55,086 bases of DNA from Dictyobacter arantiisoli. Lineage in GTDB: Bacteria; Chloroflexota; Ktedonobacteria; Ktedonobacterales; Ktedonobacteraceae. Made by a program: the position numbers and the translations under genes. Each line of letters starts with the position of its first letter. Within the stretch, counting starts at the first letter, position 1. The notes under the pieces are model-generated. The model did not search any database. It was given only the letters and a program-made list of their open reading frames with translations, and was not told the origin of the DNA. This document shows, piece after piece, positions 19,748 to 30,255 of this stretch. The DNA lies in NCBI RefSeq assembly GCF_008326305.1, contig NZ_BIXY01000046.1, forward strand, positions 1 through 55,086, written 5' to 3'.

Positions 19748-22700
19748 TTAGAGAGCGGGAACGGAGACTTCGGTCGCCTCGGTCTCAGTTGGTGTACTGG
19801 ATTGGGTTGGCAGCGTGCCTGAGCGGCGGCGAATACCCTCCACAATCACATACAGCGTGGGTACCAGCAGCAGAGTCAGAACGGTGGAGGAGGTCAAACC
19901 ACCGATCACAACAATTGCCAGCGGTTGCGAAATGAAGCCACCACTTGAGCCACCGATGCCCAATGCCATTGGCATCAGAGCCAGGATTGTCGCAATTGCA
20001 GTCATCAGGATAGGGCGCAGACGATGGCGTCCACCAGCGATCACGGCTGTACGTGCATCCATGCCCTGAGTGCGATATTGTCGTACCAGGTCAAGCAAGA
20101 CGATGGCATTGGTCACTACGATACCCACCAGCATCAGGAAGCCAATCAAGGCTGCCGCGCCGAGGGGGATACGGGTGATCAGCAGGAGGACGAACGAGCC
20201 GGTAGCCGCGAATGGGATGGAGATCAGCAGGATGATCGGCTGCAGCAGGCTGCGGAAGGTTGCGACCATGATACAGTAGACCAGCACAATTGCCACGGCC
20301 AGGGCCAGGAACAGGCTGCTAAAGGTATCCGATTGCTGTGAGGTGACACCGCCCAGTGAGTAGCTGGCACCATCTGGCAATTTCAACTTCGAGAGCTGGC
20401 TCTGTACTTTTGTGCTGACCGCACCCACATTGGTATCCGTAATTGTGGCTGTAATCGAGGCGGTACGGGTACCGTTGATATGGGTCACCTGGGTTGGTCC
20501 AGGAGTATCTGTCACATTTGCCAGATCGCTTACTTTCGCACTTCCCAGGGTCGTTGGAATGGTTAGATTTTTGATTTTAGCAATCGTTGTGACAGGGGTA
20601 CCATAGTAGAGGTTAACATTCAACTGGCTATTGTTGATTGTCACCGACGTGACATTGGATGTACCACTATAGATTGAGCGCAGGTTGAGCGCTACCTGCG
20701 AGGCTGTCATGCCATATTTCGCAGCCTTTTGAGGATCGACGTTCACCTCGATCTGTGGAGCGGCGGTAGCCAGATTACTGGCGACATCACGTAAGCCAGA
20801 GATCTTCCCAACTTCATTTTTGACCTGATCAGCGGCGCTACTCAAGGTATTCGCATCATTTGCCTTCACATCAACTTCCAGATTGGAAGAGCTGAAGCCC
20901 GCCGAACCGCTGGAGAACATGATCGTACCAGCATCTTTGACATTCGCCAGTTGATCACGGACCGTCTTCTCAAAATTGGTCTGATTGACCCCATCTTTGG
21001 TCGTCAGAGCGATGGTGGCTGAGTTCGTGCCGCCTCCGCCTGTAAAGCTGGAGAAGCCGCCACCAGAGCCGACTACTGTCTGTCGTGTCTGGATACCAGA
21101 GATGCCAGTCAGGACATTTTCAACCTTTTTGGCTGCATCATCCGTGGTGCTCAAACTGGTGGCCGGAGGCAGCGTAATACTGATTGAATAGGTGTTGGAT
21201 GAGGATGATCCAAAGAGATTGGTTTGCAGGCGGCTGGTAAGTCCGAAGGTCACAATCAGTACCGCCAGTGCCACAACCAGGGTGGTTGCACGTTGCCAGT
21301 TGCGCCCAGTAACCCAGCCCACCAGGCGAGTATAGCCACGCTCCAGGAATGTCTCTTTCTCTTCTTTGACTTCATGGCCGGGCTTCGGCGATTTCAGGAA
21401 CCAGTATGCCAGCACCGGAATAATCGTCAGAGCCACGAAGAGCGAGGCCAGGAGCGAGATGGTAACTGCTACTGAGAAGGAGTTGAACATTTCACCGACA
21501 ATACCGCTGGTAAAGGCGATAGGCAGGAAAACTGCCACCGTCGTGAGGGTGGATGCTGTAACCGCGCCCGCAACCTCACGCACTGCGGCTGGAATGGCTT
21601 TATCCTTTGGCTCACCTTGCTGCAAGTGTCGATAGATATTTTCCAATACTACAATCGAGTCGTCGACCACACGTCCAATCGCGATAGTCAGACCACCCAG
21701 GGTCAGGATATTCAGGGTATAGTTGCCGAGATAGATACCAATCAAGGCGATAACGATTGAGAGTGGTAGTGAGATAGCTGTCACCAGCGTCGAGCGAATC
21801 GACAGCAGGAAGAGCAGGATGACGATGATCGCGAAGACCGCGCCAATCAAACCTTCACGTACCAGATCATTGATGGATTGTGTGATCGAAGGAGCCTGAT
21901 CTGAAATGATCGAGACGTTGGCATTATGCCCTAATTTTGTTTGTAGATCCTTAACTTGATCACGAACTGCATGTGAGATAGTAACGGTATTGCCACTGGA
22001 TGTCTTGACAATGGAGAGACCCAGGCTAGGCTTGCCATTGGTCCGTGTCAGCGAAGTTGACGGAGCCACTACCTCTGCCACCGTAGCCACATCTTTCAAG
22101 CGAACTGGTGTAACTGCAGCACCAGCACCCGCACCGGCCGCGCCAGCACCCGCGCCAGCACCCGCGCCAGCACCCGCGCCAGCCGCGCCGGCACCCGCGC
22201 CAGGAAAGCCACTTGCGCCAGCCGCACCGGCACCCGCGCCAGCTGCTCCTGTCATGCCTGCGCTGCTTGTTGAGATGTTTGATTTTGATCCTACGATGAG
22301 GTTTTTAAGATCATCTAACGAGGTGAAGGTATTGCCAACCTTAATCGGCACAGTCTTGCCATTGGCAGTCACATCACCGGCGGGCAAGGTCATATTGTTG
22401 GCCTGCAACGCGCCTGAAACTGCTGTCGCACTGATGCCGGCCGCCTTGAGCTTGTCGGGGTCCAACGTAATGTTCACAACTTCATTGTGTACACCCGTCA
22501 CATTTACCGTACCCACGCCATTAATCTTCTCAAGGCTTGGCACGATATCCTGTTTTAACTGTGTCGCCAGCGTCTGTGCGTCTGCATCGGAGGTCACTGC
22601 CAGTTGGATGATTGGCAATGAAGAGATGCTGAACGCTTGTACCGAAGGAGTCACATTGGTTGGGAGGGTGGATTGAGATTGTGAAATGCGTTGATTTAAT

Positions 22701-23023
22701 GTCTGAGTCGCTTTGTCAATATCGGTTCCATAGTTAAAAGAGACCTCGATAATTGAGGTGCTTTCATTTGAATAAGAAGTGATCGTCTGAACACCATCAA
22801 TGCCCTGAAAGTTCTGTTCGAGTGGATCAGTGACCGCACTTTCTACAATTGATGGAGATGCACCTGCATAGACTGAAACCACTGATACCGTTGGAAACGA
22901 TATCGAGGGAAACAGCTCTTCCTTAAGAGACGGTATAATAATACCACCAAAGATTAAGATAGCGATTGTTGCCAGGGCAACAATGCTCTTATTTGCCAGG
23001 CTGATCCTTGATAAGAAGGACAT
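19748..23023 (-). CDS. RND-family efflux permease (HAE1/SwrC-like)
   Basis: This 1091-aa proton-driven drug or lipid exporter has the usual twofold design: one N-terminal transmembrane helix (about 12-32), a large extracellular loop, five further helices (about 385-560), then the same pattern again (helix near 585, loop, helices about 905-1065). The porter loops carry the FPSISFPTVSVVSVYAGASP start typical of the family. The TM4 region has the LTLGGLTIAIGRVVDDSIV motif with paired Asp. Residues about 257-305 are an unusual Gly-Ala low-complexity insert. ATG 23023 has AAGGAG eleven bases upstream. No membrane-fusion partner is adjacent, as for SwrC-type pumps in monoderms. A TetR gene lies directly upstream, with an operator between them. 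Confidence 0.92.
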   Translation of the reverse strand: MSFLSRISLANKSIVALATIAILIFGGIIIPSLKEELFPSISFPTVSVVSVYAGASPSIVESAVTDPLEQNFQGIDGVQTITSYSNESTSIIEVSFNYGTDIDKATQTLNQRISQSQSTLPTNVTPSVQAFSISSLPIIQLAVTSDADAQTLATQLKQDIVPSLEKINGVGTVNVTGVHNEVVNITLDPDKLKAAGISATAVSGALQANNMTLPAGDVTANGKTVPIKVGNTFTSLDDLKNLIVGSKSNISTSSAGMTGAAGAGAGAAGASGFPGAGAGAAGAGAGAGAGAGAGAAGAGAGAAVTPVRLKDVATVAEVVAPSTSLTRTNGKPSLGLSIVKTSSGNTVTISHAVRDQVKDLQTKLGHNANVSIISDQAPSITQSINDLVREGLIGAVFAIIVILLFLLSIRSTLVTAISLPLSIVIALIGIYLGNYTLNILTLGGLTIAIGRVVDDSIVVLENIYRHLQQGEPKDKAIPAAVREVAGAVTASTLTTVAVFLPIAFTSGIVGEMFNSFSVAVTISLLASLFVALTIIPVLAYWFLKSPKPGHEVKEEKETFLERGYTRLVGWVTGRNWQRATTLVVALAVLIVTFGLTSRLQTNLFGSSSSNTYSISITLPPATSLSTTDDAAKKVENVLTGISGIQTRQTVVGSGGGFSSFTGGGGTNSATIALTTKDGVNQTNFEKTVRDQLANVKDAGTIMFSSGSAGFSSSNLEVDVKANDANTLSSAADQVKNEVGKISGLRDVASNLATAAPQIEVNVDPQKAAKYGMTASQVALNLRSIYSGTSNVTSVTINNSQLNVNLYYGTPVTTIAKIKNLTIPTTLGSAKVSDLANVTDTPGPTQVTHINGTRTASITATITDTNVGAVSTKVQSQLSKLKLPDGASYSLGGVTSQQSDTFSSLFLALAVAIVLVYCIMVATFRSLLQPIILLISIPFAATGSFVLLLITRIPLGAAALIGFLMLVGIVVTNAIVLLDLVRQYRTQGMDARTAVIAGGRHRLRPILMTAIATILALMPMALGIGGSSGGFISQPLAIVVIGGLTSSTVLTLLLVPTLYVIVEGIRRRSGTLPTQSSTPTETEATEVSVPAL
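22111..22250 (-). repeat. GC-rich 12-bp-type tandem repeat inside the RND gene
   Basis: The plus strand reads GCCAGCACCCGC repeated several times with small variations (GCCGCGCCAGCACCCGC and similar). It encodes the Gly-Ala run of the pump at about residues 257-305. The frame stays open, so copy-number change in steps of three bases would alter linker length without breaking the gene. Confidence 0.85.
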
Positions 23024-24178: not shown

Positions 24179-24350
24179 GGCGTAACACTCCAATTGTTGG
24201 GGCGTTACGGGGTCTCTGTCCTTTAGGGTGAAAGCGGGGTACAGGGCGACAGCCCCAGACGGAGCGCGCTGGCATGCATGCCAGGGGCATGACAGTCCTC
24301 GCCATTATTTCCTTCCCCCATCACCCGGAAGGATAAAGAGGCGCGTTACG
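24179..24350 (-). repeat. Dispersed repeat, copy A (inverted)
   Basis: The core at 24209-24340, read on the minus strand, matches copy B (26531-26870) over GAGGACTGTCATGCCC, GCATGC, GCGCTCCGTC and GGGGCTG. It matches copy C over GCGCTCCGTC, GGGCTG, ACCCCGCTTTCACCC and AAGGAC-GAGA. Outside the core GGCGTAAC (24179-24186) and GCGTTACG (24343-24350) are near-inverted ends. The left end also forms a 13-bp hairpin with two G-U pairs. No coding content. Confidence 0.75.
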
Positions 24351-26046: not shown

Positions 26047-26530
26047 CTGGCGGGAATTATTGGGGTATCACTTGTGTACTGGGATATTTGGATAAAAGCT
26101 TGAGTTTGCTATTCGCATCCCTTATACTATCTTCATGGTATAAAATACATGTATCCGCTTTATCGATGCGTGAATATAGCCTTACTATATTTATGTATTT
26201 TTCTGTCTGGTTGCGCCTATGCAGCTTTTCTCGCTAGATGTCGCCAGTTGTGTACAGTCTGGCACATTTCTGGTTACTGGCATATGCAGAGGCGAGAACT
26301 GGCCTATCTGATCCCGGCGCTAAGATTTTTCACACTGTGTGCGGTTTCGTTGTTGTTGAGGAGAAGGGTTTGTGGATATCTTTCGGAACTCCGTTTGCAT
26401 CTTATTCCTGAATGCATGCCTCATTGTACCTCCCTGGGCCGTAAGGCAGACGCTTGCTCATCTTTATTATCCAGTGTTGTTCATCTGCGCTGCTATACTA
26501 GATATAGCAGATAGGTGTACATGCTCATGG

Positions 26531-26870
26531 CTATCCATCCTTCCGGATGGTGGTGGAAGAGGGAAGGTGGAAGGACTGTCATGCCCCCGGCATGCCTGCC
26601 ATCGCGCTCCGTCAGGGGCTGCCGTCCCCATAGGTGCGAACAGAAGCGGGATTGTTAAGGGTTGCACCCTTAATCTGGGGCCCGATCTCTTCCCTCCCTC
26701 TCGCCGCCGCGTGCGGCGGCGAAGAAAAGAAGAAAAAGGGGTATTTTGGGGACACCCCAAACCCCGGCAAAGGGCTGGCCGCCCTTTGCAATCCCGCTTG
26801 AAAAGCCTTATCTTCGCACCTATGGGCTACCGTCCCTGCACCCTGCTTTCTACTCTAAAGGATGGAGACC
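26531..26870 (+). repeat. Dispersed repeat, copy B, split by an inserted element
   Basis: Left half 26531-26628 and right half 26824-26870 together match copies A and C. The left half starts with the hairpin CCATCCTTCCGGATGG and includes AGGACTGTCATGCCCCC and GCGCTCCGTCAGGGGCTG. The right half continues CCGTCCCTGCACCCTGCTTT, then CTCTAAAGGATGGAGACCC. The interruption is the element at 26627-26826. A 13-base sequence is present on both sides of the insert (26616-26628 and 26824-26836, one mismatch) but only once in copies A and C. Confidence 0.75.
26627..26826. mobile_element. 200-bp hairpin-rich element inserted in repeat copy B
   Basis: The ends are perfect 14-bp inverted repeats, CCCATAGGTGCGAA (26627-26640) and its complement (26813-26826), with a second inner pair AAGCGGGATTG (26644-26654 and 26789-26799). 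Inside lie four perfect hairpins: 26655-26673 (7 bp), 26701-26722 (10 bp, GC only), 26745-26761 (7 bp) and 26767-26789 (9 bp). There is no ORF of note, so this is a non-autonomous, MITE-like element or a structured RNA gene. An imperfect 13-base duplication flanks it. Confidence 0.7.
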
Positions 26871-26950
26871 CATACTCATATATAGCACAGAGAAAGGAAG
26901 CGCGCTTCCTCCCCATGCAAGCTGGCAGGGGGTTCTGCGCGATTGTAGCT

Positions 26951-29695: not shown

Positions 29696-29911
29696 AATAG
29701 TTATCCTCCTATCGAAATTTCTTTGATTAATTTGCTTTATCCTTTTTCGCTTGATTGGACCTACATGTAAGATACTCTTGTGTCATCACATTAGTGTCAC
29801 AGCGCATCACAGACCCGTCACAAATATCTCACAAAGGCTTAAATTGCGAAAAAAAGGTTTTTCCAGAGAAAATAGCACAATATACTTTCTTCAGAGAGTG
29901 TCAGAGGCTTT

Positions 29912-30018
29912 CTATCCTTTCGGGGGATTGAGAGGAGGGGGAGTTTGCGAGGACACCTCGCGCTCCGTCATGGGCTGCCGCCCCTGCACCCCGCTTTCAC
30001 CCACAAGGACGGAGAGCC
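29912..30018 (+). repeat. Dispersed repeat, copy C
   Basis: It matches copies A and B in the same order: CTATCCTTTCGGGGG, GCGAGGACA, CGCGCTCCGTCATGGGCTG, CCCCTGCACCCCGCTTTCAC and AAGGACGGAGA. It is uninterrupted at the point where copy B carries its insert. It ends 20 bases before the long palindrome. Confidence 0.75.
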
Positions 30019-30037
30019 GTGTCAGCTTCCCGTGGCC

Positions 30038-30192
30038 TCCACGGTTTCTGTGCATGAGTTTTCGCACCTGCGGTGCTCAAACATCTTTTTAGTGTGTGGT
30101 GCAGGAAAGGTGCTGTGCACCTTTCCTGCACTACACAATAAAAAGATGTTTGAGCATCGCAGGTGCGAAAACTCATGCACAGAGACCGTGGA
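30038..30192. repeat. 155-bp near-perfect palindrome
   Basis: Two arms of 76 bases (30038-30113 and 30117-30192) are inverted copies with only a few mismatches around a three-base loop. The transcript would form a single very long hairpin in either direction. It contains the string AGGTGCGAA, which is also at the ends of the element nested in copy B. It lies between the phosphoketolase promoter side and the gene at 30256 and has no coding function. MITE-like. Confidence 0.85.
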
Positions 30193-30255
30193 GAGCAGGG
30201 AAGTCCGACACACTCTTAGAGCTGGCATAAGCAAACGAAGAGAAAGGAAATATAA

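Follow-up and report, generated by a model that had tools for sequence, protein, structure and literature searches.

The window analyzed here, by which we mean the whole 55,086-nt stretch of Dictyobacter arantiisoli contig NZ_BIXY01000046.1, contains three copies (A, B, and C) of a dispersed repeat, and copy B is split by a hairpin-rich inner element. The host assembly comprises 7.21 Mb in 256 contigs, and the organism, a soil bacterium, belongs to the same genus as Dictyobacter vulcani. The relevant features are as follows.

24210..24342, minus strand: copy A of the outer MITE, uninterrupted, with an 8/8 duplication GCGTTACG
26521..26528, plus strand: left 8-bp duplication of outer copy B, ATGCTCAT
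26529..26871, plus strand: outer MITE, copy B, with ISL3-type ends GGCT..., split by the inner element
26617..26628, plus strand: left copy of the 12-bp target duplication, GGCTGCCGTCCC
26629..26824, plus strand: inner element, 196 bp (other full copies are 208 bp), very probably a nonautonomous IS4-type MITE
26629..26640, plus strand: left terminal inverted repeat CATAGGTGCGAA, with an imperfect extension to 18 bp
26644..26654, plus strand: left arm of the inner inverted repeat, AAGCGGGATTG, 11 bp, conserved in the family alignment
26655..26673, no strand: hairpin H1, TTAAGGGTTGCACCCTTAA
26702..26721, no strand: hairpin H3, CGCCGCCGCGTGCGGCGGCG
26745..26761, no strand: hairpin H4, TTTGGGGACACCCCAAA
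26767..26789, no strand: hairpin H5, GCAAAGGGCTGGCCGCCCTTTGC, used in other copies for self-insertion
26789..26799, minus strand: right arm of the inner inverted repeat, CAATCCCGCTT, 11 bp, conserved in the family alignment
26813..26824, minus strand: right terminal inverted repeat TTCGCACCTATG
26825..26836, plus strand: right copy of the 12-bp target duplication, GGCTACCGTCCC, with one mismatch
26872..26879, plus strand: right 8-bp duplication of outer copy B, ATACTCAT, with one mismatch
about 29906..30018, plus strand: copy C of the outer MITE (locus L183), uninterrupted, an empty site with an 8-bp duplication GTGTCAGA/GTGTCAGC

Two other kinds of repeat were encountered in the same window. 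A third dispersed family is represented at 30019-30211 by a 190-bp near-perfect palindrome whose 95-nt arms are 88% complementary. Its members are found at about 50 genomic locations, frequently at contig ends, and its core has TTCGCACCT in common with the end of the inner element. At 22105-22252, Gly/Ala-rich direct repeats lie inside the coding sequence of a long minus-strand ORF (19748-23023), which, judged by eye from the sequence alone, resembles an RND-type transporter.

The boundaries of the inner element (CATAGG...CCTATG, 26629-26824) were corrected by comparison with other copies. The sequence-only reading of this DNA had described 14-bp terminal inverted repeats, and CCCATAGGTGCGAA is indeed found at 26627-26640 with its complement at 26813-26826, but the outermost CC/GG are target bases and lie outside the element. 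No further example of CCCATAGGTGCGAA occurs in the whole window when up to two mismatches are allowed. The 11-bp inverted repeats and the four internal perfect hairpins reported in that reading are all present at the positions listed above. Alignment with other family members indicates that these four are what the window copy retains of five family hairpins, the fifth (GGGGCTGTGCCCC, kept in full-length 208-bp copies) having been lost through a 13-bp deletion. The accompanying statement that the stretch contains no ORF requires qualification, because a 279-aa frame passes through it. Nothing suggests that this frame is coding, as indels differ among copies and no coding signal is seen.

Copies with the same ends, which had been proposed as something to search for, occur at about 40 loci in the D. 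arantiisoli genome, and the possibility that the ends would be private to this locus is thereby removed. The family comprises 67 DNA matches, and perfect 12-bp ends number 63 in the genome. Family members are 196-212 bp in length, with shorter derivatives of 83 and 159 bp, and an alignment of 17 full copies yields a 208-bp consensus with five hairpins. Four copies are identical across all 208 bp and five others are only 1-4 bases away, suggesting a burst of recent activity. With 24-34 alignment differences relative to the other copies, the window copy is an older family member.

Some copies also show more elaborate rearrangements. Hairpin loops are found in both orientations among otherwise similar copies (TGCAA or TTGCA in H1, and CTGGCC or GGCGAG in H5), suggesting loop inversion at the inverted repeats. 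Two loci (L030 at C91:11250 and L154 at C21:77688) are apparent chimeras, half resident hairpin repeat and half inner element, suggesting recombination between families.

An element so densely packed with hairpins might be a structured noncoding RNA or a regulatory hairpin cluster, such as a terminator or mRNA stabilizer, that was dispersed for its usefulness and whose mobility is incidental. The predicted folding of the inner element is very strong (z of -8.9 with RNA parameters and -9.6 with DNA parameters, with 0 of 200 shuffles as good), and the hairpins are conserved across copies, with 98-100% of cells paired, or 95% for H2. However, across 17 copies, which show little variation among themselves, none of the five hairpins contains a compensatory change, and no Rfam family matches at its threshold. 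Rfam microRNA matches fell below the gathering score and were attributed to chance resemblance to long palindromes. The flanks carry target duplications and correspond to empty sites elsewhere, and nested and truncated copies occur as in transposon decay. An RNA function is without positive support, although the low variation limits what the lack of compensatory changes can say, and we consider it very unlikely as the explanation for this family. Since the palindromes are alike on both strands, nothing singles out either strand as the transcript.

A 13-base sequence with one mismatch had been described on both sides of the inner element, and both the mismatch and the placement hold; the length is 12 bp, the thirteenth base being an ambiguous G. 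Copies A and C had been said to carry this sequence once, and both are in fact uninterrupted with a single target, as are the other uninterrupted host copies, which hold the target once rather than as a duplication. Insertion with a long target duplication, as originally suggested, agrees with what is found elsewhere in the family, where the duplication is 12 bp long and locus-specific. Of the 20 copies for which both ends were found, 11 have flanking 12-mers that match each other at 11-12 of 12 positions, whereas permutation of right flanks among copies reached a maximum match of 6 of 12 in 20,000 trials. In the other nine two-ended copies no 12-mer matches; the duplication is about 11 bp at L003 and L053 and absent from the rest. 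One of these nine (L053, C30:8245-8327) is an 83-bp short derivative with the 11-bp duplication GGGACTCACCC. The four copies that are identical over 208 bp are each flanked by a different 12-mer (GGCTGCCGCCCC, GGGCTGCCGCCC, GGGCGGCGAGCC, and GGGCGGCAGCCC), and they therefore arose by insertion, that is, by transposition, and not by co-duplication.

Multicopy, palindromic, and hairpin-rich sequences of this kind call to mind REP/REPIN-type repeats, which are moved by a RAYT (HUH/Y1) transposase. The inner element, however, has 12-bp duplications, and its terminal inverted repeats are shared with an IS that encodes a DDE transposase; Y1-type transposition is not known to give staggered-cut duplications. 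We assign a REPIN origin a negligible probability.

The repeat that surrounds the inner element proved to be a transposon derivative in its own right. Uninterrupted members of this outer family are 109-135 bp long, with ends GGCTCTC... and 8-bp duplications, and there are 44 matches in the genome. These characteristics, GGCTCTCC... ends together with 8-bp duplications, are the same as those of ISL3-family MITEs, the outer repeat here serving as host of the inner element. A probable parent of the outer family is an ISL3-type IS in the same genome (L253 on C39), which has an open 429-aa frame between ends at about 1443 and about 2870; its ends (GGTTCTCCGTCCTT..AAGGACGGAGAGCC, with the 8-bp duplication CAATTTTT) match those of the outer repeat. 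Because copies A, B, and C represent a second MITE family, the arrangement in the window is a MITE inside a MITE, in which the younger insertion landed in a hairpin of the older ISL3-type element.

Inner and outer repeats could also have spread together as one composite, or through recombination between repeats, so that the flanking 12-mer was inherited rather than created by insertion. Several copies do share their host repeat, the hairpin at which they sit, and their relative orientation. This scenario is very unlikely in our estimation because left and right duplications co-vary between copies and occur in different registers, identical copies lie in unrelated repeats with different 12-mers, and eight or more outer copies are free of any interruption and keep their 8-bp duplications intact, providing natural empty sites.

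An autonomous relative encoding a transposase had been named, along with copies sharing the same ends, as the evidence that would establish a mobile element, and one was found in the sister species. When public genomes were scanned for exact matches to the end CATAGGTGCGAACNNAAG, seven inverted pairs with a spacing of 1,516 bp emerged, every one of them in D. vulcani W12. These correspond to seven identical copies of a 1,516-bp IS whose 19-bp ends are the same as those of the MITE, and exact 12-bp duplications flank all seven. The inner element end reads CATAGGTGCGAA(CGTAAG), and the left end of the window copy is identical to the ends of this IS. Other end-scan matches in public genomes were single and unpaired only, among them one solo end in a hairpin context in D. 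aurantiacus (L141).

The D. vulcani IS encodes a single transposase of 450 aa, which matches Pfam DDE_Tnp_1 with an E value of 4.7e-18, above that model's cut-off score. Its best NCBIfam model is IS4_1, with an E value of 1.4e-27 and a score of 96.7 bits, below the curated cut-off of 115. The single ORF retains an intact Y(2)R(3)E(6)K motif (YRARWQIELLFKRIK, residues 319-333), and candidate catalytic residues D134, D189, and E326, assigned by eye, have 54 and 136 residues between them, the first spacing being just below the range D(60~110)D(100~150)E. For the IS231 subgroup, the published ends are CAT-------AA--TAA--- and duplications measure 10-12 bp (PMC2266710, Table 1); the D. vulcani end CATAGGTGCGAACGTAAGC matches this consensus position by position. 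The element thus resembles the IS231 subgroup (PMC2266710) in its CAT-7-AA-2-TAA ends, 1.5-kb length, single ORF, YREK motif, and 12-bp duplications, but differs in a D-D spacing of 54 rather than 60-110, in a score below the NCBIfam IS4_1 cut-off, and in targets that are hairpins of host repeats. We call it an IS4-type, IS231-like element, a designation that rests on ends, duplications, motif, and profile matches rather than tree placement; for this reason, and because one of its spacings falls slightly short of the published values, we do not name it as a subgroup member.

Within the assembled D. arantiisoli genome there is no intact IS with these ends, and its PF01609 transposases were rejected as partners because they are without them. 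A fossil of the IS is nevertheless present as a 193-bp segment (C93:7910-8102) that is 85% identical and preserves a perfect end and the start of the transposase gene. Contig ends truncate two related transposases, one on C28 (38% identical) and one on C58 (55% over 64 aa), and an intact parent IS is possibly hidden in an assembly gap. Searches with the transposase gave no match among viral contigs or PDB sequences, and relatives in plasmids are only about 30% identical.

Together, about 40 loci with shared ends, 12-bp duplications, and a transposase-encoding relative bear out the original proposal of a mobile element. The inner element is very probably a MITE, a nonautonomous DNA transposon mobilized by the DDE transposase of an IS4-family, IS231-like insertion sequence acting in trans. 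From what is known of the IS4 family, binding of the enzyme to the 18-19-bp ends (CATAGGTGCGAACGTAAG) would be followed by cut-and-paste excision of the MITE and its joining to a target through 12-bp staggered cuts that become the 12-bp duplication. Short G/C hairpins of roughly GGG-N5/6-CCC are the preferred targets, and the interspersed palindromic repeats of Dictyobacter offer them in abundance.

The sites actually occupied are small G/C hairpins in several different interspersed palindromic repeats, as well as hairpins of the MITE itself. Reconstructed empty sites contain perfect stems of 4-10 bp (mean 6.8) centered on the duplication, compared with a background mean of 2.3. One of the targets is a hairpin-rich repeat of at least 136 bp, found beside locus L011 (C47:39213-39348) and in about 15 other places, with most copies 90-98% identical. 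The GGG..CCC type of target resembles the IS231A target consensus. The transposase may read the hairpin rather than the GGG..CCC sequence. Self-insertions are located in H2 on C45 (L020), C34 (L059), and C118 (L173), copies in H2-like and H4 contexts occur on C52 (L167), and ladders of left ends lie inside H5 on C30 and C29. In these ladders (L158, C30:35907-36156; L026, C29:66873-67163), 52-bp units follow one another, each consisting of a MITE left end that meets the following unit at the latter's GGGCGGCCAGCC hairpin, as might result from either repeated self-insertion or tandem duplication.

The interior G/C hairpins are of the same kind as the chosen targets, which raises the tentative and in our judgment somewhat doubtful idea that the MITE carries its own landing sites, its cargo being target DNA. 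If true, every insertion would supply new preferred targets and the family would expand as self-nesting clusters or ladders, as on C30, C29, C45, C34, C52, and C118. Only about 18 terminal bp are common to the MITE and the D. vulcani IS, so the MITE is not a simple internal deletion of that IS. In its interior it is similar to resident hairpin repeats, which its own and related genomes also contain without these ends, and a likely origin is the placement of two IS ends around resident repeat sequence. The internal hairpins are then probably acquired repeat sequence, with no demonstrated function except as further landing sites.

The window element is a mobile element of an ordinary, known type that tends to insert in hairpins, including its own, and for which the chain of evidence is unusually complete. 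The closest parallels are the MIC231 and IS231-type mobile insertion cassettes and MITEs of the Bacillus cereus group, which are likewise nonautonomous, have IS231-type ends, and are inferred to depend for their movement on an IS4-family transposase supplied in trans. A passenger gene is present in MIC231, unlike in the element described here, which is about 200 bp, noncoding, filled with hairpins, and found in Chloroflexota. IS elements are known to insert into palindromic repeats, and the IS4-family element ISRm22 likewise inserts near the axis of interspersed palindromes, the REP palindromes of Sinorhizobium meliloti (PMC1525189). It differs in making 6-bp duplications, and no MITE derivative is described in the sections of that report drawn on here. 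Our literature search found no paper joining the terms “Ktedonobacter” and “miniature inverted-repeat.”

The analysis explains a puzzling structured repeat as one MITE nested in another and ties it to a transposase of a sister species, and it adds a case from Chloroflexota of an IS4-type element inserting into short hairpins. With many independent insertions, several of them recent as judged from identical copies, the family is well suited for testing how DDE transposases choose hairpins as targets. The analysis also shows the repeats of the genus Dictyobacter to be layered mobile elements.
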